Source: Pseudobdellovibrionaceae bacterium (lineage in GTDB: Bacteria; Bdellovibrionota; Bdellovibrionia; Bdellovibrionales; JAMPXM01). Taken from it: a DNA stretch of 39,288 bases. Shown here one piece after another: positions 7,728-35,114 of this stretch (positions are counted from its first letter, which is position 1; the number at the start of each line of letters is the position of its first letter). The position numbers were made by a program, and so were the translations under genes. The stretch covers positions 1-39,288 of the forward strand of contig CANHQR010000033.1 of the NCBI GenBank assembly GCA_947462815.1, read 5' to 3'. The notes under the pieces were generated by a model. It searched no databases, was not told the origin of the DNA, and saw nothing but the letters and a program-made list of their open reading frames with translations.

Positions 7728-7746
7728 CCCGCCCTTCATTGCCTGG

Positions 7747-7809: not shown

Positions 7810-7893
7810 TCCCCGAAGCCCCTAGGCCTCCGTCGACCTGGACCTGCGAACTCAGGACAGCTCGGGCTGAGGTTCGTTACACTCATCTCTACG

Positions 7894-9405: not shown

Positions 9406-9428
9406 CGACAAAGCTTTCGCTGAGTTCG

Positions 9429-10175
9429 TTAGTTAAAGCCTCGGCCTGTTAGCTTTTTCAGAGCACGAATGGCAACTTTGACCGCCTCATCATCGACGTG
9501 AGGCGCGAAGACAATCCCGAAAAAGAAGCCAAACATGGCGCGAATCGCGGCCGGCTCGAACTCGGGGAACAGCCGCTGCAGTTTGCGCACATAGGTGGCC
9601 TCGAGCGAACGGATCTCTTCACCAATCTCGGTGGGACGGTCCCGATGCGTGAGGTAGAAGTTGCAGAGATTCGGCGCCTGATTAGCAACGTCGCGCGAAA
9701 GCTTAACAGTTTCCGCCCAGCGGCCATCGCGCCACATGGCCGTCCGTTCAGGATTCGTCGCCACGATTTCTTCGCCGATCACCGAAATCGCTTCGCGAAG
9801 AATCGAAGATTTGGACCGACCAAAGTGATAATAAATGAGCGAGCGAGTGATGCCGCTTTTGCGCGAGAGATCCGACATTGTCCATTTCAGATGGCCTTTG
9901 CGAAAATCCAACTCGAGAGCCGCATTCAAGACGCGCCAAAACGTCGAGTCTCGGTCGCGCATTTTTTCGCGTTTCTTGCGTCGAGAGCCCTCGTGATCAC
10001 CTCCACCTTCTAAAACCGGCGCAGTTTCTCCGATTGAGGGCAGCGACTCTTCGATGACTCCGGCTGAACCAGCTGTTGAATCAGCAGTTGAACCAGCCAA
10101 AGAATCAGTTGACGAGTCATCCCATGAGTGCGTCACGGAATCGGCTGCTCGGTCGAACGCAAATGAAGAGCTCAT
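9429..10175 (-). CDS. TetR/AcrR-family transcriptional regulator
   Basis: The 248-residue product has a TetR-type DNA-binding domain at about 72-130. Its helix-turn-helix covers MSDLSRKSGITRSLIYYHFG (about 100-119), the family hallmark. The C-terminal ligand and dimer domain has no recognised subfamily. The first 70 residues are a Ser/Thr/Gly/Asp-rich, probably disordered extension ending in a basic cluster (RRKKREK), unusual for this family. I chose ATG 10175, which has GAGG about ten bases upstream; the frame is open to 10340, which would run through the upstream region of the divergent gene. It converges on the PLD-like gene (23-base gap). Its target is unknown; autoregulation and control of the divergent 10301 gene are the obvious guesses. 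Confidence 0.88.
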   Translation of the reverse strand: MSSSFAFDRAADSVTHSWDDSSTDSLAGSTADSTAGSAGVIEESLPSIGETAPVLEGGGDHEGSRRKKREKMRDRDSTFWRVLNAALELDFRKGHLKWTMSDLSRKSGITRSLIYYHFGRSKSSILREAISVIGEEIVATNPERTAMWRDGRWAETVKLSRDVANQAPNLCNFYLTHRDRPTEIGEEIRSLEATYVRKLQRLFPEFEPAAIRAMFGFFFGIVFAPHVDDEAVKVAIRALKKLTGRGFN

Positions 10176-10300
10176 AGGCAAATTACCTCTACACTTTGAC
10201 CTCAGTTCAAGCTGAAATCCTGAAAAAGTCGACCGAATTCGCGCACCCAGCAGATCAACTTCAAGCCCTAAGGCTTCCAAACTTCCGAGCGGAGGTGAGT

Positions 10301-10744
10301 ATGAAACCCCTTTCCATTCAAATTTTACGGGTTTGGCCAAAAGATACGAGGCTTGCTGTGATCATCGCGATCTTCGGCACCTTGAGTTTTGCGCTCGGTC
10401 CCGCCGTCGAAGCAGGCCCAGCCAAGTCGGATGCCAGCAGTTCCACAGTAATCTTGATACAAAAGCTGAAGAGTCGCCAAAAACGCTTTCTCACTTGCCG
10501 AAAGGACACGGATTGCGCCACGCTAGCCTATGGTCAAGCACCCTGCGGCGGTCCTGCCGGCTACTTGATCGTCAATACCAAAGGCTCGAAGGACTCTCAG
10601 CTCAACAAAATAGCGGAAGAAATCTCACAAGCGCAGCGCCTCGAACAGCAGCAACAAGGCCTCGCCGGAATCTGCATGTTGGCGCCCAAGCCCCAAGCCA
10701 AGTGCGCCAAGCAAGTCTGTCAGGAGGCTCAAGCTGAAATGTGA
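10301..10744 (+). CDS. Small exported six-cysteine protein
   Basis: The start ATG 10301 has GGAGG (10291-10295) five bases upstream; the frame is open from 10196. The 147-residue product has a long basic n-region, a hydrophobic core at about 18-33 and a likely signal-peptidase site near AVEA/GP (38-39). The mature part has six cysteines at 66, 72, 82, 125, 135 and 140, in the pattern C-x5-C, PCGG, GIC, C-x4-C. Three disulfides in the periplasm or outside the cell are likely. A Gln-rich helix (about 105-120) separates the two cysteine clusters. I do not recognise a named family. It is divergent from the TetR-type gene, with about 125 bases between the starts. Confidence 0.75.
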   Translation: MKPLSIQILRVWPKDTRLAVIIAIFGTLSFALGPAVEAGPAKSDASSSTVILIQKLKSRQKRFLTCRKDTDCATLAYGQAPCGGPAGYLIVNTKGSKDSQLNKIAEEISQAQRLEQQQQGLAGICMLAPKPQAKCAKQVCQEAQAEM

Positions 10745-10810
10745 GTCGATTGGCCCGGGCCGAGCGGAGTGAGAGATGGGGCAACTAAGATCTCGTTCAT
10801 CTCACTTAGC

Positions 10811-11884
10811 TTACTTGAAGCAGCTCCGAATACGGATCTCCTGCGGGTAAACCAACTCGCTGGTGCTATCCCACCAACCCGTCCGGCCCGCAAAACGACC
10901 CACACCGGCATCCGTCCATCCGGTTGGACAAGCAGAGGGATTCACGGCACCACCTCCGTTGTTAAATCCACTTTCAAGGTAGATGACGGATCTATTACCG
11001 TCACCAAGGCATTGACGCTTGAGAAGAACCTGAGGCCGCTGAATACCAGATGCAAGATCGTAGTAACCTTCGTCTCCCGCCTGCTCTGCAACGCCGAGAT
11101 CTCTCCATCCACTGGGACAGGCCGCTGGCTGCATTGGCCCAGCACCGTCATCGAGGCCTCCATATAGCAGCATAAACGGTACGCCTCCTCCTGCCGACTC
11201 CTGAATCGTTCCGTCAGGAAATTTGAATCCCCCAGAAGTCGACTGAACTACGCCCGCAACCGAAAGTTTCTCCGACGGATTCGTCATTCCTACCCCAACC
11301 TGTCCCGCCATATAAAAGATATCGTTTGGATTACCTGGAGAGATTTGCCAAACCCCATCCGAGCTCGTAGCGACTGCAATGCAAGAAGTAATGGCGCCAG
11401 TTGAATCGATCACTCCCAAAATTCGAATGTCGCGCATATAAACTCGGGGCCCCACGGGATCCCCGAGCGGTTCTAGCTGGAGGGTGAGTTTTGCACGCCC
11501 TTTTGAAGGCTCAGACGAGGAATCAGGAACGAAAGCTCCAATATGGGCCGAAACAAAGCGAAGCATGTTGTTCTGGTAGATCTGATTGGCGAGAAACATC
11601 TCGGAGCCGTCAGCTCGCACAATTCTCGTAAGATTACTTCCTGGACTAGTTACTGACTTGCCAGAAAAGTTTTGTCGGCAGGTTTCTGCTTGGCTCAGCA
11701 GATTAATGACCTCACCTTCAAACAATCTAACTGCATCACGAACTTCAACCGCACGCTGACCGCGCAGCGAAAAATTGAACATGGTGGCTAAGGCCAAAGA
11801 CAAGAAAGCGGTAAGTCCTGCAACAACAAGTACTTGAACGAGTGACTGGCCACGTTCCTGAATGAGAGGTGAATCGTTCCGCAC
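10811..11884 (-). CDS. Prepilin-like protein with tail-fibre module and duplicated C-terminal cysteine domain
   Basis: The 357-residue product begins with a type IV prepilin-like leader: ERG at 10-12 followed by QSLVQVLVVAGLTAFLSLAL. Cleavage after G12 would leave a hydrophobic helix, but position +5 is Gln instead of the usual Glu. The middle part is unrecognised. Residues around 195-236 (VGVGMTNPSEKLSVAG, GGFKFPDGTIQ) match the module common in phage tail fibres and similar surface proteins. The C-terminus holds two copies of a segment of about 52 residues (242-292 and 305-357), each with the pattern PxACPxGWxDxGVxxxAG...GxxD and a final cysteine. Start GTG 11884 follows AAGGA at a spacing of about ten. 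It is probably surface-exposed; the function is unknown. Confidence 0.8.
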   Translation of the reverse strand: MRNDSPLIQERGQSLVQVLVVAGLTAFLSLALATMFNFSLRGQRAVEVRDAVRLFEGEVINLLSQAETCRQNFSGKSVTSPGSNLTRIVRADGSEMFLANQIYQNNMLRFVSAHIGAFVPDSSSEPSKGRAKLTLQLEPLGDPVGPRVYMRDIRILGVIDSTGAITSCIAVATSSDGVWQISPGNPNDIFYMAGQVGVGMTNPSEKLSVAGVVQSTSGGFKFPDGTIQESAGGGVPFMLLYGGLDDGAGPMQPAACPSGWRDLGVAEQAGDEGYYDLASGIQRPQVLLKRQCLGDGNRSVIYLESGFNNGGGAVNPSACPTGWTDAGVGRFAGRTGWWDSTSELVYPQEIRIRSCFK

Positions 11885-12217
11885 CTAACTTTTATCCTTG
11901 GCAAGATCTGACTCTAAACATTCTGAACTGAATCACAGTCTAAAAAAATCGGATGCGTTCAAAGTTGCTAGAAACCAGCCCCAGGTCGGGTCAGCCTCAA
12001 AGATTGGCATTCAGAAAACTCCGGACTTAAAGTCCCGAACAATCAAATCTGTTTTCGATGGAAGTCGTCTCAAATCGAAGCGCTCTAATCGGATTTTGGC
12101 GATCTGAACGGTGCACTCTTGGGCTTTCATAATTGATAAGATATTCTGCAAACGGTGACTTCAACGGCCGGGCGGTCAGTCGCAAATGTGAAGTGCACAT
12201 CTGCTACTAGAGGGGCG
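11885..12217. other. Divergent intergenic region, relatively AT-rich
   Basis: About 330 bases separate the divergent prepilin-like and FecR-domain genes. A 69-codon frame starting with TTG at 11898 crosses it, but it lacks a ribosome binding site and has a low-complexity basic composition. I did not call it. A plausible plus-strand promoter lies at 12119-12147. Confidence 0.45.
12119..12147 (+). promoter_or_regulatory. Candidate promoter of the FecR-domain gene
   Basis: TTGGGC at 12119-12124 and TATTCT at 12142-12147 are separated by 17 bases in a locally AT-rich stretch. The predicted transcription start near 12154 leaves a leader of about 64 bases before ATG 12218. Confidence 0.4.
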
Positions 12218-13669
12218 ATGGTAGAATCTTCGAAAAATTTGCCGGGAGCCCGGTCGGATTATGACCTGAGTTGGCTGAGCGCCAGCATTCTGGGGATTGC
12301 CGTCGGAATGGCCCTGGGTCTTTCTTCCAAAGCGCAGTCCCAACAGGGCCCGAATCATCCGATCGCGGGATTTGTCGCGCGAATAGATGGATCTTCCGCT
12401 CAGATCCTAGCTGACCAAGCGACATGGAAATCTCTGCGCGTTAACCAGCGCTTGCTTGTTGGCGACACGATTAGAACTGGATCGGAAACCACAGTTACGG
12501 TCCGACTCAGTAATCGATCAATTTTCGAATTAGCTGCACTCTCCGAGGTCACTCTGGAGTACTTCGAGCCGAAAAGTGGCGAAGCCTTGTTAGGACTCGG
12601 GAGCGGCAAAATTCGCGCGCAAGTGATTCGGCGACCCAACAGCGAGGTCAGGTTCAAAATTCGCTCAGGCGCCGTTGTGGCTGGAGTTCGCGGGACTCAC
12701 TTCATGGTGATTCATCAAGAATCAGCTTCACATGCTTTTTCTGGTGTCATGGTTGAGAGCGGCCTCGTCGAAGTCCGTGACCCCGCAACAGGGGAACTCA
12801 TCGAAAACTTGTCCTCAGATCAAGCTTTGACCGTGGCCTCAAACACTCTTCTAACTGGAAACTATTTCCCGATTTCCGCGATCACGCCCTCAATGTGGGA
12901 CCTGCAGACAGGCGAGGATATCAACGTGACCAACTTTGGCAGTTACAAAATTGGAGTTTCGCGAGGCGTCTTTTTGCCTGGCAACTTTAGGCAATGGCGA
13001 ATCCGTCCACAAGGAGTCCGGATCAAACAGCTCAACAGAGGCTCGGTGACCCAAGAAATGGTGACTCAAAAGCTCAAGCAAGGATCAATTCGACCCGTGA
13101 ATGATTTTGCGAATGATCTGGGTGTTCCGCTGGTAAGGCCAGGAACACTACCCAACGACCCACTTCCTGCGCCAACTGATCCCAACCCTCCCTCTACGCC
13201 AATGAACAGTACTCGGCCGCGAGCCGTCGTAACTGGGAGAGCTCAAGGCTCTGAGGTCTTGACCCGTGATATTCTTGGTGGCTATGAGCCGCGCGCACTC
13301 TCTCGCGAACCCGCGAGAATCCCTTTGATCTCTGAGGATCCAGATTCGCTGATGAACACAATAGATGCTCTGCCAGCACCCTTGAACTCTTTTAGAGCTT
13401 ATCAACCCTTGCAACTTCAGGTAGTTCCGATTTTAAGCCCGCCACCGACCGCAACTCCGCGACCCACGGCGACCGCAACTCCGCGACCCACGGCGACCAC
13501 AACTCCGCGACCCACGGCGACCACAACTCCGCGACCCACGGCGACCACAACTCCGCGACCATCACCGAATATCAATACCGACGAAGCCGATGACGGACAT
13601 CATCTTGACTTTTTTGAGCGACTCATATGCCTTTTGCCGTGGATTGATCCGCCCCACTGCGGGAGGTAA
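12218..13669 (+). CDS. Exported FecR-domain protein with TPRP repeat tail
   Basis: The 483-residue product has a signal peptide or N-terminal anchor (hydrophobic about 19-36, likely end near KAQS/QQ). A FecR domain follows at about 48-215. Its recognisable segments are the VGDTIRTG motif, GLGSGKIRAQV, and FKIRSGAVVAGVRGTHFMV followed by VESGLVEV. Such free-standing FecR domains are usually periplasmic and are not limited to iron sensing; no sigma factor or TonB receptor is adjacent. The C-terminal third is Pro/Thr-rich, with a perfect eight-residue repeat (ATPRPTAT type, about 411-448), and ends in a short tail with two cysteines. ATG 12218 follows AGAGGGG closely; the frame is open from 12155 but has no ribosome binding site there. 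Confidence 0.85.
   Translation: MVESSKNLPGARSDYDLSWLSASILGIAVGMALGLSSKAQSQQGPNHPIAGFVARIDGSSAQILADQATWKSLRVNQRLLVGDTIRTGSETTVTVRLSNRSIFELAALSEVTLEYFEPKSGEALLGLGSGKIRAQVIRRPNSEVRFKIRSGAVVAGVRGTHFMVIHQESASHAFSGVMVESGLVEVRDPATGELIENLSSDQALTVASNTLLTGNYFPISAITPSMWDLQTGEDINVTNFGSYKIGVSRGVFLPGNFRQWRIRPQGVRIKQLNRGSVTQEMVTQKLKQGSIRPVNDFANDLGVPLVRPGTLPNDPLPAPTDPNPPSTPMNSTRPRAVVTGRAQGSEVLTRDILGGYEPRALSREPARIPLISEDPDSLMNTIDALPAPLNSFRAYQPLQLQVVPILSPPPTATPRPTATATPRPTATTTPRPTATTTPRPTATTTPRPSPNINTDEADDGHHLDFFERLICLLPWIDPPHCGR
13451..13560 (+). repeat. 24-bp in-frame tandem repeat, about 4.6 copies
   Basis: Units start at 13451, 13475, 13499, 13523 and 13547 (the last partial) and differ only at the first base (G or A). 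Each encodes eight residues of a Thr-Pro-Arg-Pro-Thr-Ala spacer. Near-identity at the DNA level indicates recent slippage expansion without frame loss. Confidence 0.9.
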
Positions 13670-13684
13670 ATCATTTTTTTCGGA

Positions 13685-14659
13685 CTATTGCTCCCCTAAA
13701 ATTTTCTTACGAAGAAGAAAGATCACGGGATCGACAGTACTCCAACTAATCTGCTTCGGGATTAAATCGCTCAATACGAAATGTTCTACGGGGATCACAT
13801 CAATCGTCGTCCCAATCATAAGCGCCCCTTTTGCCGACGAAAGTTGTTCAGGCGTGGCATCCTGCTCCCGAACCTTAATTCCGCAGCTTTTCGCCAACTC
13901 CATGACTCGCACCAACGTGCAGCCATCTAAGATGTTATGAGAACGAGGAACGCAAAGTGCTCCTTCATCATCAATCCATGCAAAGTTTTCGGTCGCACTT
14001 TCGGCAAGAAACCCTGAAGCATCAAGGCTGATCACAAAGTCCAGACCTCGATCTACAGCCTCTTTCTTCATTAGTACGTTAGGCAAGTAGTTGCATGATT
14101 TGATTTGTGGGAAGGGAGAGGGTTTCACAGAAATACCTGAAACCCCCACTCGACATCCTCGTTTTATCCAATCGTCTTTCATGGGCGCAAGATCGGTGAT
14201 CACACAGTAGAGCTGAGATCCCAATGTTGAGTAAGGATTCGGACTAAAATCACCTGGTCCTCGGGTCACGAAGATTCGAAGAAGGCCCATGGTCAGGCAG
14301 TCCTCGACTTCACGCAGCCCCTCCATTAACACTTCCTCTATCTGAGCCATTCGCCATGGGATATCGAGTCCGATTCGCAAGGCACTTCTTTGAAGTCGGA
14401 GTAGGTGCTCTTTCATCAAATAGGCTCGGCGTTTTTTGAATTTAATGGCTTCAAATACCGCATCACCTCGATGGAAGCCATGATCATCCATCGGCAACAT
14501 CATGAGTGCGGGATCTTTAGTCCAACCGCCAAAAAAGCTGGAATACATCCACCGCATGCTTTGGCGCGAAGCTGTCAGCTGTCGACGATTGGCTTCGACG
14601 AGATTCTCTAAACTGAAAGGCTGATAATTGAGATTCTTGAACGCAGATTCGCTGGGCAT
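13685..14659 (-). CDS. Class IV PLP-dependent aminotransferase
   Basis: The 324-residue product belongs to the fold-type IV family that includes branched-chain aminotransferase, D-amino-acid transaminase and aminodeoxychorismate lyase. DDHGFHRGDAVFEAIK (58-73) is the usual N-terminal signature. K187 in IKSCNYLPNVLMKKEA is the expected PLP lysine, and E220 in LAESATENFAWI is the conserved PLP-ring glutamate. The MIGTTIDV segment near the C-terminus is the phosphate-binding region. The substrate cannot be settled from sequence. ATG 14659 follows GAGG six bases upstream. It is divergent from uppP and convergent with the FecR-domain gene, so it appears monocistronic. Confidence 0.9.
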   Translation of the reverse strand: MPSESAFKNLNYQPFSLENLVEANRRQLTASRQSMRWMYSSFFGGWTKDPALMMLPMDDHGFHRGDAVFEAIKFKKRRAYLMKEHLLRLQRSALRIGLDIPWRMAQIEEVLMEGLREVEDCLTMGLLRIFVTRGPGDFSPNPYSTLGSQLYCVITDLAPMKDDWIKRGCRVGVSGISVKPSPFPQIKSCNYLPNVLMKKEAVDRGLDFVISLDASGFLAESATENFAWIDDEGALCVPRSHNILDGCTLVRVMELAKSCGIKVREQDATPEQLSSAKGALMIGTTIDVIPVEHFVLSDLIPKQISWSTVDPVIFLLRKKILGEQ

Positions 14660-14783
14660 GCATCACCTCGACAAGTGGACTTCAGTTGAATTTCAAGCCG
14701 ATTCATTATTTCATCAAGCTCGAAGACAACTTTGAGATCATCAAACAGACTATAAAACAGATTATCGAAGCGAGGTCGATGAG

Positions 14784-15581
14784 GTGGAGATTTGGCAGGC
14801 CATTGTTTTGGCGATCATTGAGGGTTTGACGGAGTACTTGCCGGTGAGTTCGACCGGACACATCATTCTGGGCTCCGCCGCTATGGGCATTCACGAAGAT
14901 CCCTTCGTTAAGGACTTCACCGTCATCGTCCAATTCGGTGCAATTTTATCCGTCATCGTCGCCTATCGAGAACGACTCCAACATGCCCTCAAGTCGGGCC
15001 CCACCCCATGGCTGAAACTCGGCGTTGGATTTCTTCCAGCGGGAGTGATCGGCTTTCTCCTCAAAGACCATGTCGATGCTTGGCTGGGATCCGTTGAGGT
15101 TGTCGGCTGGTCGCTGCTTCTCGGTGGCGTCTTACTGATCTTTGCGGATCGGCTCTGGGGTAAGGGCAAGGCGCAAGACGCGCTTCATCTTCCTTACGCC
15201 AAGGTTGTGGCAATTGGTCTTACGCAGTGTTTAGCACTTGTTCCCGGGGTCAGCCGATCCGGCGCCAGCATCATCGGCGGTATGGCGCTTGGACTTTCGC
15301 GAAGTACGGCCGCTGATTTTTCGTTTTTCCTCGCACTCCCGACTTTGGGCGCGGCCACGCTCTATAAGTCGATGAAGATCGCACCCACCATCACCGAAGA
15401 CCAAATCTTGCCACTTCTGTTGGGCAACTTGGTCAGCTTCATCGTGGGCCTATTGGCCATTCGTATGTTTATTCGCTTCATTGCCCAACGCGGATTCTTT
15501 TGGTTTGGAGTTTATCGAATTCTTGTCGGTTCAGCGATTTTGCTCATTCTCGCCTCTGGGTATACACTGAAGATGCAATGA
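14784..15581 (+). CDS. uppP: Undecaprenyl-diphosphatase
   Basis: This integral membrane phosphatase (BacA/UppP type) recycles undecaprenyl pyrophosphate to the monophosphate for peptidoglycan and other surface polymers; overexpression gives bacitracin resistance in other bacteria. The 265-residue product has the two hallmark motifs, EGLTEYLPVSSTGH at 13-26 and PGVSRSGASI in the second half, and multiple hydrophobic helices. The start is GTG 14784, with GAGG (14772-14775) eight bases upstream. It begins the uppP-DCC-ABC-F unit; the next gene overlaps its stop by four bases. Confidence 0.96.
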   Translation: MEIWQAIVLAIIEGLTEYLPVSSTGHIILGSAAMGIHEDPFVKDFTVIVQFGAILSVIVAYRERLQHALKSGPTPWLKLGVGFLPAGVIGFLLKDHVDAWLGSVEVVGWSLLLGGVLLIFADRLWGKGKAQDALHLPYAKVVAIGLTQCLALVPGVSRSGASIIGGMALGLSRSTAADFSFFLALPTLGAATLYKSMKIAPTITEDQILPLLLGNLVSFIVGLLAIRMFIRFIAQRGFFWFGVYRILVGSAILLILASGYTLKMQ

Positions 15582-16041: not shown

Positions 16042-17685
16042 ATGTTAAGTCCCAAGGCTATGATTCAAGTCGCGGGACTCGCCAAACACTACGGCAATAA
16101 AGTTCTCTACCGAAACGGCAATTTCCAACTCAATCCCGGCGAGAAGGCCGGTTTAGTGGGCCCCAATGGTGCGGGTAAAACCACGATCTTTCGCTTGCTC
16201 ATGAGCGAAGAGCGACCCGACGAGGGGCAAGTTTCCAAGCCGGATCGCGTGACGATGGCTTATTTCTCACAAGACATCGAAGATATGCGTGGCAAGAGTG
16301 TTCTCGACGAAGTCAAATCCGCCGTTGGCGCCGCGGGTGATATTCAAAATCGTCTTCGCCAAATCGAGACTGAACTCTCAGAGCCCATGGACGACGATGT
16401 GATGGCCAAGAAGCTCGAAGAGTATGGCCAACTGCAAGGCGAGTTCGAGCGCCTCGGCGGCTATGACTTAGACTCGCGTATTGCGGAGATCCTCACAGGT
16501 CTCGGCATCCCGCCGGAAGACCACCTACGTCCTACCGAAAGCTTTTCGGGCGGTTGGAAGATGCGGATCGCCCTCGCCAAAGTTCTCGCCGTCAATCCCG
16601 ATATCCTGCTGATGGACGAGCCAACCAACCACTTGGACCTGGAAAGCATCATTTGGCTGGAACAATGGTTGATGAACTTTCCGGGCGCCCTGCTGATGAC
16701 GAGCCACGATCGAGACTTTATGAATCGCATCGTCAGCCGCATCATCGAAGTCGCGCATCAAAGCATCACCGTTTATGGTGGAAATTACGATTTCTACGAG
16801 CGCGAGCGAGCGATCCGTCGCGAACAGCTTGTCGCGGCGGCCAAACGCCAAGAGGAGATGCTCGCCAAGGAAGAAGAGTTTATTGCTCGCTTTGCAGCTC
16901 GCGCCTCACATGCTGCACAAGTGCAGTCCCGAGTCAAAAAGCTCGAAAAAATCGATCGTATCGAAGTTCCGACCGAAGAGCGCAGCATGGCCTTTGAATG
17001 GCCCGAGCCACCGCGCGGAGGCGAAGAGGTCGTCAAGTTCGAGCAGCTCGGCAAGTCTTGGAAGTCCGCAGAGGGCCCCGAGAAGTTGGTGTTTCGTGGC
17101 GCCTCGGCGTTGGTCAAACGCCTCGACCGCGTCGCGGTGGTCGGGGTGAACGGAGCCGGAAAGTCGACACTGCTCAAAATTATCGCCGGACAAACAGAAG
17201 CTTCCGAAGGACGCTGTACCGTCGGCGCGTCGATTAAGGTCGGTTATTTCTCGCAAAACTCCCTCGACGTTCTGGATCGCCAAAGCACCATCGTCGATGA
17301 GGTTCACGGCCGCATTCCCAATCAGAACTTGGGCTATGTTCGAAATCTCCTCGGTGCCTTTAGATTTTCCGGCGACGAAGTCGAAAAGAAAATTTCAGTT
17401 CTCAGTGGTGGCGAAAAGAGTCGCGTGGTGTTGGCCACGATCTTGGCACTAGCTCCGAACCTCCTTGTCCTCGACGAGCCGACCAACCACCTCGACATCC
17501 AATCTCGTGAAACTTTGCTCGATGCGATCAGGGGCTTTCCCGGAACCGTCATGATGGTGAGTCACGACCGACATTTCTTGCGAGCCATCGCCACACGCGT
17601 CTTTGAAGTCGATCGCCAAGAAATTCGTATGTACGACATGGGCTGGGACGACTACATCGCGTGGAAGGCCCGAAGCACAAAATGA
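16042..17685 (+). CDS. ABC-F family ATPase
   Basis: This is a soluble tandem ABC protein without membrane domains, of the family that acts on ribosomes (EttA, Uup, YbiT, YheS and antibiotic-resistance members). The first ABC domain has GPNGAGKTT, the signature FSGGWKMR and LLMDEPTNHLD. The second has GVNGAGKST, LSGGEKSR and LVLDEPTNHLD. A basic coiled linker (about 255-310, rich in ERER, KRQEEML and KKLEKID) lies between them. At 547 residues it resembles YbiT-like housekeeping members more than resistance types, but I cannot assign the subgroup firmly. It starts 17 bases after the DCC gene at ATG 16042, though ATG 16060 is also possible. A strong hairpin follows the stop. Confidence 0.93.
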   Translation: MLSPKAMIQVAGLAKHYGNKVLYRNGNFQLNPGEKAGLVGPNGAGKTTIFRLLMSEERPDEGQVSKPDRVTMAYFSQDIEDMRGKSVLDEVKSAVGAAGDIQNRLRQIETELSEPMDDDVMAKKLEEYGQLQGEFERLGGYDLDSRIAEILTGLGIPPEDHLRPTESFSGGWKMRIALAKVLAVNPDILLMDEPTNHLDLESIIWLEQWLMNFPGALLMTSHDRDFMNRIVSRIIEVAHQSITVYGGNYDFYERERAIRREQLVAAAKRQEEMLAKEEEFIARFAARASHAAQVQSRVKKLEKIDRIEVPTEERSMAFEWPEPPRGGEEVVKFEQLGKSWKSAEGPEKLVFRGASALVKRLDRVAVVGVNGAGKSTLLKIIAGQTEASEGRCTVGASIKVGYFSQNSLDVLDRQSTIVDEVHGRIPNQNLGYVRNLLGAFRFSGDEVEKKISVLSGGEKSRVVLATILALAPNLLVLDEPTNHLDIQSRETLLDAIRGFPGTVMMVSHDRHFLRAIATRVFEVDRQEIRMYDMGWDDYIAWKARSTK

Positions 17686-17687
17686 AA

Positions 17688-17709
17688 CAGCCCGAGTTCA
17701 CTCGGGCTG
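17688..17709. terminator. Strong bidirectional hairpin terminator
   Basis: CAGCCCGAG (17688-17696) and CTCGGGCTG (17701-17709) form a perfect 9-bp stem with a TTCA tetraloop. On the minus strand it is followed by a T-rich run (TTTCATTTT). It lies between the convergent ABC-F gene and the lipoprotein gene ending at 17765 and could serve both. Confidence 0.75.
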
Positions 17710-17764
17710 CAAAATTGAAATTGGAATGAAACTTTATCGGGCCTTGAATCGAGGCCGCTTGCGG

Positions 17765-18703
17765 TCAGCGCTTGGCCTCAACAAAACCAAGGACCGAGCT
17801 CTTATTGCGAATCTCCGCTCGCAGCACACCCTGCAACCAGGTACCGGTGATCGATAGGACATTCGCACCTGGAATTGTGCTCGGCGCTGAACCCGAGTCG
17901 CGCATCGCAATTTCGCCGGTCTGCGCGTTGTAATCGACTTTAAGTGAGTACTCGCCAATGCCCGATGGGAAGTCGAGGCGGCGATACTGCGCTTGCAACT
18001 CGGGCATCGAAACACCGGTTGAGCTCGGTCGCTCGACGATCACCAAAGAAATCTCCACGGGATAATCATTGCCTGCTGTCGCTCGGACCGTACCAACGTA
18101 CGCGCCTTCCATCGGCCGGTGGATGCGAAGCCAACGCTCGCGAAGCTCCTGCTGAGCCCCCGCTCCCGGCGCCATGGAGTCGATCGAAGTTCGGCGAGCT
18201 CGGAAGACGCCCCAAACGCCACCCTTTCGGGCGAGCTCCACCTGCATCTGCTCACCGCCCGCCTGACCGCGCAGTGACAACATCACATCCGAGCCACCCC
18301 CATTGGCGAGCGAGGTCATGACCAGACGGCCCGTGCGGTCATAATCACCCGCCAAGGTCAGCTGATCGGTTTCCGTGACCACGTCTTGGGGCAAGAAGCG
18401 CGCACGCAGTGTCGGCCGCAGTCGCGTCGACCCATCCGGATTCGCACCGTCTTGGAGGTATACGATGTAGACACTGAGTCGCGCGGCGAGGGGGCGTAAG
18501 CCTTGGCTCACCAGCTCCCCATCCCATGTGCCTTGCACCGAGCTGTACAAATCTTCAAGGGCCTTGGCGTCACGCGCTTGCTGCGCGCGAGTCTCGTCTC
18601 CAGGAGCCGAACCCGACGAACATGCAGACGTCGCCATGGTCGAAATCGCAAGCGCCATTGTGAAAAGCCAACGAGCCGGATTATATTTCAGACTCAAGTA
18701 CAT
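17765..18703 (-). CDS. Lipoprotein with two copies of a beta-rich domain
   Basis: The 312-residue product has a signal peptide ending in a lipobox (TSAC, C28), so it should be lipidated by Lgt. Two segments of about 114 residues (57-170 and 199-312) match each other in layout. Each has G-x-W/Y-x-G near its start, a strand with (S/V)xxIV, DYDRTGRL against DYNAQTGEI, and LSLRG..ELARKGGVWG against LSITG..EIRNKSSVLG. This is an internal duplication of an unrecognised, probably beta-rich domain. ATG 18703 has GAGG six bases upstream. It lies eight bases after the TolC-like gene and is the last gene of the 22743-17765 operon. The hairpin at 17688-17709 follows it. Confidence 0.82.
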   Translation of the reverse strand: MYLSLKYNPARWLFTMALAISTMATSACSSGSAPGDETRAQQARDAKALEDLYSSVQGTWDGELVSQGLRPLAARLSVYIVYLQDGANPDGSTRLRPTLRARFLPQDVVTETDQLTLAGDYDRTGRLVMTSLANGGGSDVMLSLRGQAGGEQMQVELARKGGVWGVFRARRTSIDSMAPGAGAQQELRERWLRIHRPMEGAYVGTVRATAGNDYPVEISLVIVERPSSTGVSMPELQAQYRRLDFPSGIGEYSLKVDYNAQTGEIAMRDSGSAPSTIPGANVLSITGTWLQGVLRAEIRNKSSVLGFVEAKR

Positions 18704-18711
18704 CACAGACC

Positions 18712-20268
18712 TCACTTCGTACTGGATGTGGGACGGATCAACTCATCGCGAATCGCGGCCCATTGATTCAAAGCAATTTGATAATTTCCTACGGAGCGCA
18801 CGCGCTCCAACTGCGCCACGAAAAGATCATTGTAGGAACGAATGAGCTCCACCAACGTGGTTCGGCCTTGACGATAAGCCTGCTCCAATTCACGCACGAC
18901 TCGGCCTCGCTGATTGACGATCGTGATCGAGGCAATCGCCGCATCGCGATTGGCCGCCGCATTTCGCTCGGCCGCGGCCAATTGATCCCGAGCTGCATCA
19001 CGGGCATTCTTCAACTCCATCTCGCGAAGAGTTTTTCCCGCACTCGCTTCCCCGATCTGCGCACGAAAGAGCGAAGAGTCTAAAGGCCATTCCAATTCAA
19101 CGCCCAGTGCGTAAGTCGGTGTCGAGCCGCTCCCCATCTTTGCGAAGCTTTGATCCGACTTCTCATCCACGCCTGTGGACTTCGCTTGGGCGATCAGATC
19201 CAAGCGAGGGCGCGAGAGACTTCGCGCCGACAAATAGTTGCGTTCGGCAATTTCAAAGTTCATTTGCGCGAGCCGCACGGGTCGCAGCTGATCAAGCTCA
19301 AGACCGGCCGGTTTTGGAAGCTTCGGAAGTTCCATCACTTCGGAAGCCGAAGCCTTAAACTGAATTGGCTCCTTCGGGTCAATTTGCAGCAGAGTTCGCA
19401 ACTGATCGAGGGCCGCCAAATACGAAGCGGCGGAAAGTTTCACGCGCGCATCGGCCGATTCAAACTCCGCCTCCAGTCGCGGGAGCTCTCCGGGGGCTGA
19501 CGCCCCGAAGCCGGTCTTACGCCGGACACTCGCCACCAACTGAGAGTATTTATCTCGAGCCGCTGTGTTCTCGCGAAGCTGAGTTTCCGCCACATAGGCG
19601 TTCCAAAACGCCGTCAGTGCCGACAAAATCGCCTCTTCCAAATTCTCTTGGCGCAAAAGATCCGCCTGCGTCACTTGGGTTTCGGCCGTCTGTAAAACAG
19701 CGCGATCCGACTCACCCAAGATGTTGCGCCACAGGCTTTGACGAATCGCCAAACTCACCGCATCGAGATTCGCCTCAGGTCGGCGAAGGCTTGATGTGAA
19801 TGAGGAGAGCGTAGAATTCTGATTGATCTTGTCGTACTGTAAAGTCAGCTGCGTGCCTGAAGAGAGGCTCTTCTGCGCTGAGGTGACAATCGTCCAGGTT
19901 CGGTCCTCGGGATTGCCAATGCCGCTCAACGGGAGCGCTTTGTTGATCTCGTAGGTCGGCGCAAAGCGCACCACCAAGTCATAGGGCGACCTCAGGCGCT
20001 CAGCAAGCGCGACACTTTGTTCGGCTTGAGCCTCAATCGACTTCGCCCGCGTGCTTTGCTTCAGCACGAGATCCACAACACTTTGCTGCGAGAGCTCAAG
20101 CGCCCACGAGGCTGGGGTGAAGAGCGCCGCAGCGGCGAGAAAGATCGTCATAGAGCCGCCCACGACTCGGTTCAAAAATCGAAACTCCGAACTCGCCGAC
20201 AGCTTGGCCGCCCGGCCTTGGATTTCACTCCGCTGTTGATCAAGTTGAGACACCTTAAAGTGAGCCAA
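18712..20268 (-). CDS. TolC-family outer-membrane channel protein
   Basis: The 518-residue product has the TolC-type architecture: a signal sequence ending near ASWA/LELSQQ, then two similar halves of long helices and strand pairs. Alanine- and glutamine-rich amphipathic helices (for example LAAAERNAAANRDAAIAS) and the late YRQGRTTLVELIRSYNDLF segment are typical of the family. Such proteins form periplasmic tunnels for tripartite efflux or type I secretion. No inner-membrane pump or adaptor is adjacent. TTG 20268 has GGGAGG five bases upstream and overlaps the end of the preceding gene by 14 bases; the frame also allows 20295. The stretch before the signal helix is unusually long (about 40 residues), so a start further in cannot be excluded. 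Confidence 0.88.
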   Translation of the reverse strand: MAHFKVSQLDQQRSEIQGRAAKLSASSEFRFLNRVVGGSMTIFLAAAALFTPASWALELSQQSVVDLVLKQSTRAKSIEAQAEQSVALAERLRSPYDLVVRFAPTYEINKALPLSGIGNPEDRTWTIVTSAQKSLSSGTQLTLQYDKINQNSTLSSFTSSLRRPEANLDAVSLAIRQSLWRNILGESDRAVLQTAETQVTQADLLRQENLEEAILSALTAFWNAYVAETQLRENTAARDKYSQLVASVRRKTGFGASAPGELPRLEAEFESADARVKLSAASYLAALDQLRTLLQIDPKEPIQFKASASEVMELPKLPKPAGLELDQLRPVRLAQMNFEIAERNYLSARSLSRPRLDLIAQAKSTGVDEKSDQSFAKMGSGSTPTYALGVELEWPLDSSLFRAQIGEASAGKTLREMELKNARDAARDQLAAAERNAAANRDAAIASITIVNQRGRVVRELEQAYRQGRTTLVELIRSYNDLFVAQLERVRSVGNYQIALNQWAAIRDELIRPTSSTK

Positions 20269-21232
20269 CAAGTCCTCCCGACCAGTTCCATTCATTGAGA
20301 CTCAAGCGTCCCGCTTGAGCTGTTCCGCTTACGCTTGCGCTTGCACCGACTGGACCGACATTTCGCAAATTACCCCGATAGGCCGCGCCCACCACGGCGG
20401 ACCAACGAGGATGGATCGCCCAAAGAAGATCCAAGCCGCCCACCGCAAACATCTGGTCGGCACTTCCCGCGATTTCTGAGTACCGCGACGTCTGCATCCA
20501 ACTCATACGCCCGGCACCGGCCTTGAATTGCAAGGAAAGAGCTCGCGTGGTGAGCCCCGTGGGAGGCGCATCGAGAAGATCCGTTTCAGTCTCGCTCGCA
20601 AAGGACCAAGCCCCCCACTTCACGCCAGCCCGAAGGCCTGCCTCAGCGCGAAGCGCATGCAGTTGCACATCATCGTACAAAAAGCCGATCGGCGACCGAT
20701 AATTGATCTTGGATTGCGTGTAGCCCACTCCCAAATAGGGACCCCAATTTCCAGCGTGACCCCGATCATCCAAAACCAATTCGAGATTCAAAGCCGGCAA
20801 AGGGTTTAATCGTCCATCACGGAAGTCGACTTCTTGGCCGTTACCGAGCTCCATCACCAATTCGGGCTGCCAAACCTCAGCACGAAGTCCGAGTGACCAG
20901 GCCCACCCCAACGGGCGAATCGATTTGAGTTCAGCTTGAGGAGTCACGGTCGCCACTTCCGCTTGCGGCGCCAAAGTCGCAGTTTCGGAAGCAACGGACT
21001 CGGCATCTTTCATCGATGCACGAGCCGCGCGAGACGTCTTTTGGGATTTTTTCTCAAAAGGGTCCGCGATGTGACCTGCGCCGATCGCGAGTTCACTTTG
21101 TGCTCGATCTTCCAACCCCAAACTTGCCGGTGGGGCTGGGACCGAAGCCGAGGCGAGCGTCGAGCCCAGCCATAGACTCATCCCCACCCAAGCGCTGATT
21201 TTCGAGAGGGACTTTAAGTTGGTCTTCATCAT
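20255..21232 (-). CDS. Exported protein with predicted outer-membrane beta-barrel domain
   Basis: The 325-residue product has a signal peptide (cleavage near LASA/SV, about residue 29). An Ala/Glu/Ser-rich linker covers about 30-105. The C-terminal part (about 108-325) has alternating short strands with aromatic residues, for example WAWSLGLRAEVWQPEL, PYLGVGYTQSKINY and WSAVVGAAYRGNL. This suggests a small outer-membrane barrel or related beta-fold. No named family is recognised. The start overlaps the stop of the upstream lipoprotein gene (ATGATG over TGA at 21229-21232), so translation is coupled. It lies between that lipoprotein and the TolC-like protein, and a structural or assembly role alongside TolC is possible but unproven. 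Confidence 0.78.
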   Translation of the reverse strand: MMKTNLKSLSKISAWVGMSLWLGSTLASASVPAPPASLGLEDRAQSELAIGAGHIADPFEKKSQKTSRAARASMKDAESVASETATLAPQAEVATVTPQAELKSIRPLGWAWSLGLRAEVWQPELVMELGNGQEVDFRDGRLNPLPALNLELVLDDRGHAGNWGPYLGVGYTQSKINYRSPIGFLYDDVQLHALRAEAGLRAGVKWGAWSFASETETDLLDAPPTGLTTRALSLQFKAGAGRMSWMQTSRYSEIAGSADQMFAVGGLDLLWAIHPRWSAVVGAAYRGNLRNVGPVGASASVSGTAQAGRLSLNEWNWSGGLVGSL

Positions 21233-22743
21233 GGCTCAACTCCGATGTGCATGTATCGGCAACGTTCCTGGGACATGGGAAGCACGCCCTGCGCGGTCCA
21301 TCGATACACTCTTCGACCGAAGTCCGCAGGCAAGGTCGCAAATAGCGCGCGGGGGGCCGCTTCATCATCACCCGTTACCTGCAGATCCCAAAGGCCTGGA
21401 CGACGATCAAAACTCGAATACAATTCCAGGGCCTTCACGACGTCTTGGGGATAGGACACATCTTCGACAACGCTCCACGCGATCCCGCCGCGGCCCGAAG
21501 GACCACGACGTAGCACTCTCAGCCACGCCTCGCGGACCTGAATTCTGGTCCCCATGATGTCGGTCTGAGTCGAAAAGTCCTCGCTGGCGGTTGCCGCAAA
21601 GATCTCGCCGGACGCAACATCTTTCCACATCGCGAAGGCCGATGACACTCGCCCTGGCCAACGACCCACCAATGCCTCAGCCTTGAGCTGAGACGGCTGC
21701 AGGGGCGGTACGATTAACCATTGATTTTGCGCATTCATTCCCCCGAGCTCGTGGCCCGCGCGCTGGCTGAGAAACTGCAGCGGGCGACGGAGAGCACTCA
21801 CGCTGGATCGCGACAGCTCTCGACGGGCTTTTAGGTCCAACTGCACGATGTGCGTGCGCACACGACCGCCGGCCAAATCGGAAAACAGGAACACTCCATC
21901 GCTATCACGAAGTTCCGGCCCGAAGGCATGAGCCGTCGACGAAACCCGCATCCACTCGCTTGAGTTTTGATGGTCCCAAATTCGCCAAGCTTGAATCCGG
22001 CCAGATTGCGTGATTGGGAAAATGGCAAAGCGACCTCGATCGCTTCGACCAAAGGCCCGCACCGTCGCACCTTCGTTTTCCGCCCATTGGCTGAGTTCTC
22101 CCGGCCAATTCGGCTCGTCCGCAACTTCACGAGCTTCGCCCACCCGGTAAACGAGATCGGCATCCGCCATGAAAATGCCTCTCGACTTCCCGAGGCTCGA
22201 GCCGGTGCTCATGCGCGTCGCCGCGAAGACCAAGCGAGCTTCGTTCGTCTTGACCCAACTCACCAACACAGGAGCGGTGTGGTCCTCCAATCCCAAGCGC
22301 GAACGATCCACGGGACCTCCCGGCGAACTTGGAAGTCCCAATGCCAAGGCCGCGCCAAATCCCGAAGCTCCTGCTAAAGACGAGATGGCCGTGATGTAAC
22401 TCGGGTAACGATCATCACAGAAGGCTCGATATCGCGGCAAGGGTGAGGGAGTGGCTGTCGGCGAAGGTGGGGGCTGCGTGCCGCCTTGATTGTCGGAGTC
22501 TTGCGGCTGCCCCTGATCGGAATCCGTACCCTCTTGACCCCCCTCTTGACCCAAAGGAGCCCCCGGTGAGCTCGGTGGGGGTTGAAGTTGCACTTCTTTT
22601 TGAGGCGAACAGGCCACGCCGACGCACAGCGCACCGGCGATCAAAACAAGAGCCGAAAGTCGCCCATTTTTCAGGCAGGACAGAGCCTTAAACCACGGCT
22701 TAAAAGATAGGCCTGGCATCAAACACGTTTGCACCGCGCGCAT
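21229..22743 (-). CDS. Large lipoprotein of unknown function
   Basis: The 504-residue product has a signal sequence ending in a lipobox-like VGVAC (C45). A low-complexity Pro/Gly/Gln/Asp linker (about 46-105, including PTATPSP) follows. The rest (about 106-504) is a globular domain rich in short beta segments with repeated aromatic and basic positions. This could be a beta-propeller-like fold, but I do not recognise the family. The long linker suggests the globular part stands well off the membrane. ATG 22743 follows a purine-rich GAGGGG. It is the first gene of the four-gene minus-strand operon ending at 17765. The promoter should lie in 22744-23277. Confidence 0.78.
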   Translation of the reverse strand: MRAVQTCLMPGLSFKPWFKALSCLKNGRLSALVLIAGALCVGVACSPQKEVQLQPPPSSPGAPLGQEGGQEGTDSDQGQPQDSDNQGGTQPPPSPTATPSPLPRYRAFCDDRYPSYITAISSLAGASGFGAALALGLPSSPGGPVDRSRLGLEDHTAPVLVSWVKTNEARLVFAATRMSTGSSLGKSRGIFMADADLVYRVGEAREVADEPNWPGELSQWAENEGATVRAFGRSDRGRFAIFPITQSGRIQAWRIWDHQNSSEWMRVSSTAHAFGPELRDSDGVFLFSDLAGGRVRTHIVQLDLKARRELSRSSVSALRRPLQFLSQRAGHELGGMNAQNQWLIVPPLQPSQLKAEALVGRWPGRVSSAFAMWKDVASGEIFAATASEDFSTQTDIMGTRIQVREAWLRVLRRGPSGRGGIAWSVVEDVSYPQDVVKALELYSSFDRRPGLWDLQVTGDDEAAPRALFATLPADFGRRVYRWTAQGVLPMSQERCRYMHIGVEP

Positions 22744-23277: not shown

Positions 23278-23979
23278 ATGACAGAGATCTCGACTCGCGC
23301 ATCCTCTGACTCGCACGCCGTGGCTTCTCTCGACGAAGACCCCTTGCGTTCAGCCGTGGAAAGACTCCGCCAAGAGATCCGCACGCGTCCGCATCTGAAT
23401 TTACAAGAATTTGTGTTGATCCTGGGTCCAGAAGGACCCGTGATCGCAGCCTTGCTCTTGTCCTTACCTTTTCTGCAACCCTTCCCGCTCATGGGCATCT
23501 CGACGCCGATGGGTTTCACCATTGCGCTCTCCGGATGGGCGATGATGACCCATCGGAAAATTTGGTTGCCTCGCTGGCTGGGCGAGGTCAAATTGCGAAG
23601 CTCGATCATCGGTCGCACGCTCGACTTCTTTGACGGTCTCGAGCGCAGATTTAAAGTTTTTTTGCGCACGGATACAGGTTTTCAGCAAAGCGGTTTTCGC
23701 CGACGCGCTGGACTCGCGATTTGCATTCACGGATTTTTGCTTGGCTTACCTTTGCCGCTGCCTTTCTCGAATACATTGCCAGCTTGGGTGGCCGTGTGGG
23801 GCGGCTTAGCGGTGTTGTTTGCAAGCCCTCGTGCGGCCTGGGCCATGCGCGCGACCGTGCTGATCAATGTCGCCTACTGGGGCGGAACGGTTTACTTGAT
23901 CGCTCGACTGGCCCATCAAATCGGAACATGGAACCCATGGGCTTTAGCCGAGGCCATCGGCCGGGGCTTGGCCTTTTGA
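23278..23979 (+). CDS. ExoD-family membrane protein
   Basis: The 233-residue product matches the exopolysaccharide-synthesis ExoD family in layout. It has a cytoplasmic N-terminus, then a conserved LILGPEGPVIAALLLSLPFL segment leading into PFPLMGISTPMG, and further hydrophobic segments at about 145-165, 170-185 and 200-220. The biochemical role of the family is not known; in Rhizobium it affects exopolysaccharide and alkali tolerance. ATG 23278 has GAGG about ten bases upstream. About 130 bases separate it from clpP. Confidence 0.85.
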   Translation: MTEISTRASSDSHAVASLDEDPLRSAVERLRQEIRTRPHLNLQEFVLILGPEGPVIAALLLSLPFLQPFPLMGISTPMGFTIALSGWAMMTHRKIWLPRWLGEVKLRSSIIGRTLDFFDGLERRFKVFLRTDTGFQQSGFRRRAGLAICIHGFLLGLPLPLPFSNTLPAWVAVWGGLAVLFASPRAAWAMRATVLINVAYWGGTVYLIARLAHQIGTWNPWALAEAIGRGLAF

Positions 23980-24110
23980 ACGGATCGAGACCCAGCACGA
24001 CCCCTCAAAGAGACCTGATTTCTCAGCCCTCCTGCACCAAGCTTGAATCCCTCGGCGAAGTCCCGCAGCATGAAGTCCGGTGGCCTGAATTCAGCTCGAG
24101 GAGTAGCCGC

Positions 24111-24803
24111 ATGCCGAATGATCTCGTTTCGCCCAATGACTTAGTTTCGATGATTCCCGTTCCGACGTCTTCACCCCAATCCGAGCCCCGCATGGATGAC
24201 GGTGATGAGCCGCAAAAGCCCAATCAAGGATCGAACAAAGAGTCCAAACTTCCTAACCCCATCGAAGTGGAGCTCTTCGAAGCACGCATTGTCATGATCT
24301 CAGCGCCCATCGAAGCTAAATTGGCTCACGCGGTGAATGCGAAGCTGTATGCCCTTGAGCGAGCCAACCCCGAAAAACCGATCTATGTGCTCATCAATTC
24401 ACCTGGCGGCGAAATTCAAAGTGGATTCTCAATCTTCGATACCATTCGTTTCATTCGCCCGCGTGTGTACACGGTCGTGACAGGTCTTGCGGCGAGCATG
24501 GGCTCCATCATTGCGCTGGCGGCCTCGCCCGAAGATCGCTTTGCGTTTCCAAATTCGAAGTTCCTTGTGCACCAGCCGCTGATCGCGGGCGGTCTGGCTG
24601 GATCAGCCACCGACATCGCGATTCACGCCAAAGACTTGATTGAGACGAAAAATAAAATTATCGACTTGTATGCAACAGAGACGAAGAAGACGCGCGAAGA
24701 TATTAAAAAAGCCATCGACCGCGACAACTGGATGTCGCCAGAAGCCGCTCGTGATTTCGGATTGATCTCAAAAATTGTATCCAAGCGAACCGAGTTGCCC
24801 TAA
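24111..24803 (+). CDS. clpP: ClpP-family serine protease with acidic N-terminal extension
   Basis: The 230-residue product is a ClpP peptidase. The oxyanion-loop motif is INSPGGEIQSG (95-105). The catalytic triad is S129 (GLAASMGS), H154 (FLVHQP) and D205 (DRDNWMSPEAA). With an unfoldase, ClpP tetradecamers degrade cytoplasmic proteins. The first 50 residues are rich in Pro, Asn, Ser, Asp and Lys and replace the short propeptide or axial loop of typical ClpP. No clpX or clpA is adjacent, so this may be an additional paralogue. ATG 24111 has GAGGAG (24098-24103) seven bases upstream; the frame is open from 23721 inside the ExoD-family gene, but nothing there resembles ClpP. A strong hairpin follows. 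Confidence 0.92.
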   Translation: MPNDLVSPNDLVSMIPVPTSSPQSEPRMDDGDEPQKPNQGSNKESKLPNPIEVELFEARIVMISAPIEAKLAHAVNAKLYALERANPEKPIYVLINSPGGEIQSGFSIFDTIRFIRPRVYTVVTGLAASMGSIIALAASPEDRFAFPNSKFLVHQPLIAGGLAGSATDIAIHAKDLIETKNKIIDLYATETKKTREDIKKAIDRDNWMSPEAARDFGLISKIVSKRTELP

Positions 24804-24907: not shown

Positions 24908-25897
24908 TCACCGCGTTGTTCGCTGACCCGTCTCGTTGCGATCTGCATCGCGAGTCGGATACCAGACATGGCCTTGCTCCTCACCCACCATGCGCTCAAG
25001 TCCCCGACCGACTCGACCCAAAAAAGCTTCTTCCGCAGCCAATGCACCGAGGCCCACCGCACCGGCTACACCCATACGCGCCGAGCGGACCAAACGACGC
25101 AATTGCTGGAACTGCTGAGCCGGAAGACGAGTCACTGAATAGATCCGTCCTCCGTTTCGAAGCTTCTCGTTGAGCAAGGCTTCGGCACGAGCACGATTAC
25201 CTTGCGCCTCGCCGATTGTTTCATCAAAGCGATAGATCGGTACAGGTCCGCCTCGACGAGCATCCATCGCTCGAGCCCGATAATCGGCAGCTTCGCTATC
25301 CGCCAGTGCGGCCAAAGCCATGTTGCGTGCGTAACCCGCGTGGTCCACTTCTGTGACAGTATAGGAACGAGTCTCGGTTTTACCTTCGTGATCCGTGTAC
25401 GACTCAGTCCTCGTCACTTGTCGGGGAATCAAGGACGAAGCCGCGGCCATCCTGTAGGAAGCGGCACTGCCTTCTGCCGAGCTCGCATTGGAGTCCATCA
25501 ACTGAATGTGATGCTGTCGGTTGGCCGCATCGCTCAGACGCCATTGTACTTGCACGCGATCGCCGTCGGCGACTTCACCGACGAGAGAAGATGGGCGGAT
25601 CTGATCCGCCGCTGAACCGTCCACGCTTTGCATGAGGGATCTCGTGTGAGCCTGATCGAAGTTTCGCGCCTCCCGGTAGCGACGAACCGTGTGAATGGTG
25701 ACGGCCGTGGCTCCTACTGCTGAACCCGCGGTGATCAAGCAGTCGGCCTGTCCCGCCAGACAATTGGCTCGACCATCCGCCGCTCTTTCCACGAGCGATT
25801 GTTGGGCTCGACTCAAATTGGGAAGCGCCAAATTTGAAATCATAAGAGCACTCAAGACTGACTTCATGATGAGTTGTTGACGCTGGCCTGGCTTCAT
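24908..25897 (-). CDS. Exported protein of unknown family
   Basis: The 329-residue product has a signal peptide (hydrophobic about 14-27, cleavage near SRA/QQ at 31). Two cysteines follow (NCLAGQADC), then a hydrophobic TAGSAVGATAVTI stretch. A charged, Ala/Ser-rich region comes next. Near the C-terminus, a Gly/Ala-rich GVAGAVGLGALAAEEAF segment could insert in or associate with membrane. I do not recognise the family. ATG 25897 is clear, with GGGAGG six bases upstream; the longer frame to 26089 is not needed. It is divergent from another exported unknown at 26124, which also carries a Gly/Ala-rich hydrophobic segment late in the protein. Confidence 0.75.
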   Translation of the reverse strand: MKPGQRQQLIMKSVLSALMISNLALPNLSRAQQSLVERAADGRANCLAGQADCLITAGSAVGATAVTIHTVRRYREARNFDQAHTRSLMQSVDGSAADQIRPSSLVGEVADGDRVQVQWRLSDAANRQHHIQLMDSNASSAEGSAASYRMAAASSLIPRQVTRTESYTDHEGKTETRSYTVTEVDHAGYARNMALAALADSEAADYRARAMDARRGGPVPIYRFDETIGEAQGNRARAEALLNEKLRNGGRIYSVTRLPAQQFQQLRRLVRSARMGVAGAVGLGALAAEEAFLGRVGRGLERMVGEEQGHVWYPTRDADRNETGQRTTR

Positions 25898-26123
25898 CAC
25901 ACGCCTCCCAAATAAGCGCTTTCGCCCGTTACTTTCAAAAGCTCCTGGAGATGAGAGGCAAGAGCCGTTCCAAATTGAGACGCCTCGACACCTTCTCAAA
26001 TGCGATAAAATTGACCCCATCCCTTGACGGGCACCTCTTCCCCATCCCAACACGCAAAGGTGACGATTCAGGCGCAACAACAGCGACATTCATGGCTCAA
26101 ATCACGGTCGCCGATAAGTCGGT

Positions 26124-35048: not shown

Positions 35049-35114
35049 GATTTCGAAGTCTAGCCCATGCGTCGACGCTTATCCAATCAGATTGCTTCGG
35101 GTAAGCTGAGGGGC

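Follow-up and report, generated by a model that had tools for sequence, protein, structure and literature searches.

The DNA analysed here (the window), from a relative of the predator Bdellovibrio, is a stretch of 39,288 nucleotides that makes up the entire contig CANHQR010000033.1 (C33), part of a Bdellovibrionales assembly that comprises 107 contigs and is 96% complete. Four open reading frames (ORFs) on its minus strand span positions 17765–22743 in the order w1, w2, w3, w4, and encode a TolC-family channel (w3), two lipoproteins (w1 and w4) and a predicted outer-membrane protein (w2). This unit is likely the outer-membrane portion of an export machine whose pumps are encoded apart from it, and would provide an exit shared by resistance-nodulation-division (RND) pumps. 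The original prediction, made from the DNA letters alone, had offered two possibilities: a channel shared with pumps encoded elsewhere, or an outer-membrane complex with a different role. The former is favored by relatives in which the channel is linked to three RND clades and to one ABC/HlyD system with repeated changes of partner, and by RND genes of the same genome that lie outside this contig. The features of the region are:

21229–22743, minus strand: w1, first gene of the unit, a 504-residue lipoprotein with a Pro/Gly-rich linker
20255–21232, minus strand: w2, a predicted 325-residue outer-membrane protein, with an 8-strand OmpX/OmpA-like barrel and a long N-terminal stretch
18712–20151, minus strand: w3, a TolC-family outer-membrane channel without a lipobox; likely start ATG at 20151, with the ORF open to 20295
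17765–18715, minus strand: w4, a 316-residue lipoprotein with two helix-plus-8-strand barrel domains, of a family found near TolC-type channels
17687–17710, minus strand: a terminator-like stem-loop (10 pairs, T-rich tail) after w4 and before a convergent ABC-F gene

The positions of the four minus-strand ORFs were confirmed. Three junctions had been described as overlapping or shorter than 10 bases; this holds for w1/w2 and w3/w4, which overlap by 4 bases each, and probably fails for w2/w3, where an overlap of 41 bases arises only if an upstream ATG is used. Since homology in most w3 relatives begins only at residue 49–63 (at 28–35 in three), ATG 20151 is the likely start of w3, giving a gap of about 103 bases. 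The stem-loop at 17710–17687 is a consensus match only, as such stems are not enriched there over shuffled sequences.

The assignment of w3 to the TolC family, suggested earlier, is supported by a match to the Pfam OEP family (PF02321) of 34.1 bits (E 3.1e-8), above the cut-off of 22; the match consists of one stretch only (residues 340–514). NCBIfam added nothing for w3, and a search of PDB sequences with the w3 profile gave no match at E≤0.001. The protein lacks a lipobox, and a lipobox-like string occurs in only 2 of 77 w3-like proteins. The partners were correctly described as being of unknown family, with w1, w2 and w4 having no match at E≤1 in Pfam or NCBIfam. Likewise, the absence of a pump or adaptor alongside was borne out: profile searches of the window contig found no RND pump, adaptor or second OEP protein. 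The unit thus contains neither the RND pump nor the adaptor expected of a tripartite RND system. A Pfam scan of the 30 window proteins identified a single transporter pair, an FtsX/MacB_PCD permease and an ATP-binding cassette (ABC) ATPase at 32928–35048, ∼10 kb from the unit and divergent from an adjoining LolA-like gene. Because of this LolA-like neighbor, the pair more probably functions in lipoprotein sorting than in efflux.

To place the unit in its wider context, 140 genomes of the order were surveyed. Relatives of w3 (E≤1e-15) are present in 89 of these, and relatives of w4 and w2 (E≤0.001) in 71 and 60, respectively. Among 79 fetched neighborhoods, 77 contain a w3-like gene; the 72 that score above 280 bits, with the window excluded, were counted and represent 70 Bdellovibrionales genomes and 32 genera, while five loci below 280 bits (L051 and L162–L165) were left aside. 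Conservation of the gene order, which had been proposed as a check, is evident from these loci. A w2 relative lies directly upstream of w3 in 63 of the 72 and a w4 relative downstream in 63, with both present in 58; w1 is directly upstream in 16 loci from 11 genera. The set also recurs in three loci outside the order, as w2-w3-w4 (L186), as w2-w3 with a divergent w4 (L187), and as w2-w3-RND with w1 further downstream and w4 divergent (L188). Genes were called as longest ORFs, so that the w2 count is a slight underestimate (the w2 gene of L039 was missed by the caller and seen by hand), and contig ends conceal neighbors in several loci. The w1–w4 profiles were built partly from the tallied loci, which therefore match by construction, and w1 membership was widened by four inclusion rounds at E≤1e-3 among 967 neighbor proteins.

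An RND pump is encoded within 6 kb of w3 in 46 of the 72 loci, covering 18 of the 32 genera, compared with a chance expectation of roughly 3% per locus (estimated for a 3.43-Mb genome with 6 full-length RND genes). Two of these 46 loci, L150 and L160, are pieces cut by contig ends. The pump gene is co-directional and downstream in 17 loci, divergent and upstream in 28, and convergent in 1. In seven loci (L132, L144, L151, L153, L154, L155 and L158), it is situated between w3 and w4. The w3 neighbors in genomes G002, G027, G036 and G004 are RND pumps of the ACR_tran family. The original prediction had named a case that would speak against it, namely the same TolC gene beside a pump with the lipoproteins absent. 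Such cases are rare: w4 was not detected in 5 of the 46 RND-linked loci (L042, L131, L150, L157 and L161), and neither w2 nor w4 was detected in two (L150 and L161). The L150 contig is 3.3 kb long, and its genome, G115, carries an RND-w4 piece on another contig (L194). The w3-like gene of L161 is one of two in G063, and the other copy (L148) is accompanied by w2 and w4.

In a tree of 54 RND proteins, built by a quick method and with long branches, 42 of the 46 linked pumps fall into three separate clades, A (9 members), B (24) and D (9); the linked loci outside these clades are L129, L149, L150 and L160. Mapped onto the w3 tree, the pump labels change 6 times for A, 5 for B and 5 for D, and no label forms a single clade in 200 bootstrap trees. 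Even the window's own family includes one locus with a D pump (G004) and one with an A pump (G002). Since A, B and D pumps each occur in separate parts of the w3 tree, one channel lineage has been joined repeatedly to different pumps. As a separate observation, RND proteins of clade D (L036, L132, L144, L151, L153–L155, L157, L158 and L162) carry the motif LVDN in transmembrane segment 4 (TM4), compared to VDD or IDD in the other linked clades.

One locus combines the channel with a different kind of pump. In L050 (positions 7419–15002, genome G016), genes for a C39-peptidase ABC exporter, an HlyD adaptor, w2, w3 and w4 form one co-directional run, which from its gene content appears to be a type I-like secretion operon that uses the w2-w3-w4 channel set. 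As in known type I systems (ABC-HlyD-TolC), the channel set here follows a C39-ABC exporter and HlyD. The unit could therefore be regarded as a duct for protein secretion, with the RND linkage being secondary. However, a single locus of the 72 has this arrangement, compared to 46 that have an RND pump, and no C39-ABC exporter is present among the 30 window proteins scanned. We regard this explanation as highly improbable.

A shared exit requires pumps elsewhere in the genome, and the survey of pumps in the window's own genome covered the RND family. Six full-length RND genes are located on contigs C20, C19, C17, C6, C44 and C37, and OEP matches are located on C17, C5, C6, C33 (w3 itself), C16 and C46. 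Clades A, B and D are each represented, by the pumps on C6, C19 and C37, respectively, all on contigs other than C33. The C17 and C6 pumps adjoin a channel gene, while the C19 and C37 pumps have no OEP gene alongside. The C19 clade is the one joined to w3 in Bdellovibrio-like genomes, and the C37 clade is the one joined to it in G004 and several f4 genera. From these relationships, we infer that w3 serves the C19 and C37 pumps in trans.

The companions of the channel are predicted to be envelope proteins. In w4, cysteine 32 is invariant in both alignments made (13 of 13 and 45 of 45 sequences), and 62 of 65 relatives pass a strict lipobox string. The structure model (mean predicted local distance difference test score, pLDDT, of 89) contains two helix-plus-8-strand domains, and the two halves of the protein match each other with an hhalign probability of 99.5 (E 1.8e-22). 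The two domains thus appear to have arisen by duplication, in agreement with the earlier description of a duplicated-domain lipoprotein. In a comparison of w4 with calycin-like barrels (lipocalin, nitrobindin and fHbp), the 50 VIA matches listed have Z scores from 11.1 to 6.5; these mostly cover the second domain, and this level is common for 8-strand up-and-down arrangements. Longer w4 relatives, of 610–875 residues, are found in L137, L138, L139, L142, L146 and L148; in the genome search these have two or three profile matches per protein, compared to the two domains of the window protein.

The AlphaFold2 model of w2 has 8 long strands, with core blocks above pLDDT 90 and a mean of 75.7. Its best Foldseek matches are Ail (E 1.9e-6), OmpA (1bxw, 1.9e-5) and OmpX (5.2e-5), at TM-scores of 0.33–0.37 when normalized by query length, since the barrel alone aligns. 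As far as prediction goes, w2 is an 8-strand transmembrane barrel that fits the small outer-membrane barrels of the OmpX/OmpA type, as its earlier description as barrel-like implied. The description of w1 as a large, linker-bearing lipoprotein also holds: the lipobox-position cysteine is the same in all 7 sequences (the window and six others) and is followed by the Pro/Gly-rich stretch, with 6 of 9 relatives passing the strict lipobox string. The best match of w1 among PDB sequences is weak (E 0.34), and a beta-propeller fold is only a guess.

Relatives of w4 are also found apart from w3. A profile search across the phylum matched 105 of 368 genomes, many of those outside the order weakly. Twenty-nine w4 loci away from w3 were fetched (L166, L167 and L189–L215), and the ORF caller recovered w4 in 27. 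An OEP-family channel is present on the same strand, at most 2 genes away, in 21 of these 27, where a chance neighbor is expected in ∼1% of loci (estimated from six OEP loci in 3.43 Mb); the others are L166, L167, L194, L203, L212 and L213. Twenty of the 21 channels exceed the Pfam OEP cut-off, and that of L204, which has no Pfam match at E≤0.01, was assigned by a custom profile. Because the search for these loci used only the w4 sequence, the link between w4 and channels is independent of w3. Thus w4 tracks TolC-family channels in general rather than w3 alone, a relationship that is new here. A protein of 226–259 residues accompanies w4 and the channel in 14 of the 21 loci, and the pooled profile of these proteins matches w2 (hhalign probability 96.7 over 180 columns, compared to 3.7 and 0.6 for control pairs). 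A fifteenth protein of this size, from L198, looked like a superoxide dismutase and was left out of the hhalign run. Individually, only those of L189 and L201 match the w2 profile.

Few adaptors were detected in this setting. All 10 genomes tested contain a match to the adaptor model TIGR01730 at E≤0.001, which exceeds the model's cut-off in 6. A profile built on 14 of the adaptors from these genomes was also run on all proteins of the fetched neighborhoods. In the 79 neighborhoods, adaptors were detected only at L050, where the HlyD protein belongs to the ABC system, and at L129, where a CusB-like adaptor lies beside a putative heavy-metal-type RND; this label, or CusA-type, is our own reading of its tree position and its CusB-like neighbor. 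Compared to AcrAB-TolC and MexAB-OprM, the w3 systems share a TolC-family duct and, in relatives, a linked ACR_tran pump. They differ in having an additional barrel and lipoproteins, and in that, for the linked pumps of all three clades (A, B and D), the profile search detected no neighboring adaptor gene. The window's own genome has 2 adaptor genes for its 6 RND genes, on C5 and C25, contigs without a full-length RND match. The complete genome G036 has seven full-length RND genes (L168–L173 and L047), and none was found to have an adaptor gene alongside.

These observations, together with the RND gene placed between w3 and w4 in seven loci, raise the possibility that the linked pumps work without a periplasmic adaptor, with w4 and w2 opening the TolC duct and holding it on the pump. 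Several points argue against this. G036 contains bare OEP-RND gene pairs (L168, L169 and L172), with channels confirmed by Pfam, that have no detected adaptor and also lack w2 and w4, so that adaptor loss is not tied to these proteins. Because of these three pairs, w4 does not simply replace the adaptor, and w4 or w2 as a general stand-in for it was rejected. In addition, the w4 model has no helical hairpin and w4 has no match to adaptor families; adaptor-like genes occur at the w4 loci L203 and L204 (in L204 beside another RND); and adaptors could act in trans or lie beyond the reach of the models. An adaptor-free pump is therefore unlikely. A similarly doubtful possibility is a previously undescribed Bdellovibrionota TolC module, made up of the channel, small barrel and tandem-barrel lipoprotein, which has been swapped among several RND clades as well as an ABC exporter and retained as paralogues. 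In such a module, TolC would be connected to RND pumps in the absence of a canonical adaptor, whose function the lipoprotein and the barrel would take on from the side of the outer membrane. No adaptor-free RND pump is named in the passages of PMC8277102 that were available.

In the shared-exit reading, w3 would be a TolC-type exit duct without a lipid of its own, accompanied by w4 as a lipid-anchored companion, by w2 as a small barrel residing alongside in the outer membrane, and by w1 as an additional lipoprotein of the set. RND pumps encoded elsewhere (on C19, C37 and perhaps C6) would expel small molecules through this duct. The E. coli tolC gene is likewise not encoded with its pump, as is the case for w3 in the window. 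OprM and CusC are TolC-family channels. These outer-membrane factors are described as lipidated in parts of PMC13082787; w3, in contrast, lacks a lipobox, and the lipid would be carried by separate proteins.

The closest parallel is YbjP, a lipoprotein that sits on E. coli TolC at its periplasmic surface and has its lipid embedded in the membrane, according to passages of two reports (published 2026; PMC13082787, PMC13016604). Like YbjP, w4 would be a lipoprotein companion of a non-lipidated TolC outside the pump proper. By analogy, w4 most likely packs on w3 close to the outer membrane, where it would assist in inserting, holding or orienting the channel. The analogy would be functional, without homology: w4 as a YbjP/DUF3828 homologue was rejected for lack of a DUF3828 match (Pfam, E≤1), and its model consists of tandem 8-strand barrels. 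The distributions also differ. YbjP is reported, in the part of PMC13082787 consulted, only in some Enterobacterales and without a clear role, whereas the channels linked to w4 relatives belong to a different phylum.

A number of observations weigh against a shared exit with a lipid-anchored companion. No RND is seen in 26 of the 72 w3 loci, and the window likewise shows none; of the 5 g5 genomes nearest to the window, 4 show no RND either (in G010 and G012 the contig ends inside w4 or 0.1 kb beyond it). Part of the pump changes counted in the w3 tree are gains or losses relative to "no pump seen", and contig ends cut some of these loci; B rows L164 and L165 lie on long branches. In the window's own genome, the C46 channel has no RND alongside and could serve the C19 or C37 pump, and the C6 pump has its own OEP gene upstream. 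The strict lipobox string is found in only 13 of the 21 w4 relatives beside other OEP channels, and 4 of these 21 channels have a lipobox-like string themselves. Finally, in the passages cited, YbjP is dispensable for E. coli efflux under standard conditions (PMC13082787, PMC13016604), and most species without YbjP also have a non-lipidated TolC (PMC13082787); the need for a lipid anchor is therefore not strong.

The 26 loci without an RND, one of which (L050) has an ABC exporter, could also be explained if the unit formed an outer-membrane complex for structure or assembly whose TolC-like protein has no transport function. The window contig would fit such a role in that it carries further lipoprotein and envelope genes: LGT (6249–7727), BacA (14784–15581), and the LolA-like and FtsX/ABC genes (32928–35936). 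Yet 18 of the 32 genera have RND genes at most 6 kb from w3, and w4 relatives adjoin other OEP channels. We consider a non-export function very unlikely, and a different role unrelated to pumps was rejected as the main interpretation, as relatives have pumps beside or within the unit.

Convergent with w4 is a gene for an ABC-F ATPase with two ABC_tran domains and an ABC_tran_Xtn domain (16042–17685); Bdellovibrio-like relatives have a convergent 599–629-residue ATPase at or near the matching position. ExoD-like and ClpP-like genes (23278–24803) are divergent from the unit, and a ClpP relative lies close to the unit in 9 of the 11 fetched loci of the family (L033–L043). A 393-residue ORF (24908–26089) has no match in Pfam or NCBIfam, and a 40% relative is located near the unit in L037.

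The separation of the channel from its pumps accounts for most of the puzzle of a TolC protein without a pump; the companion set and its spread are new. A literature search returned no title on a Bdellovibrio TolC or RND system and no description of the partners of w3. The present analysis describes a separate lipoprotein family whose genes are associated with those of TolC-family channels across a different phylum, in many cases next to or within RND operons, and the small barrel would be a second partner. Gene removal is established in Bdellovibrio, where the question of why some TolC channels have lipoprotein companions becomes testable. The RND genes beside which no adaptor genes were detected further raise the question of whether every RND-TolC pump needs an adaptor.

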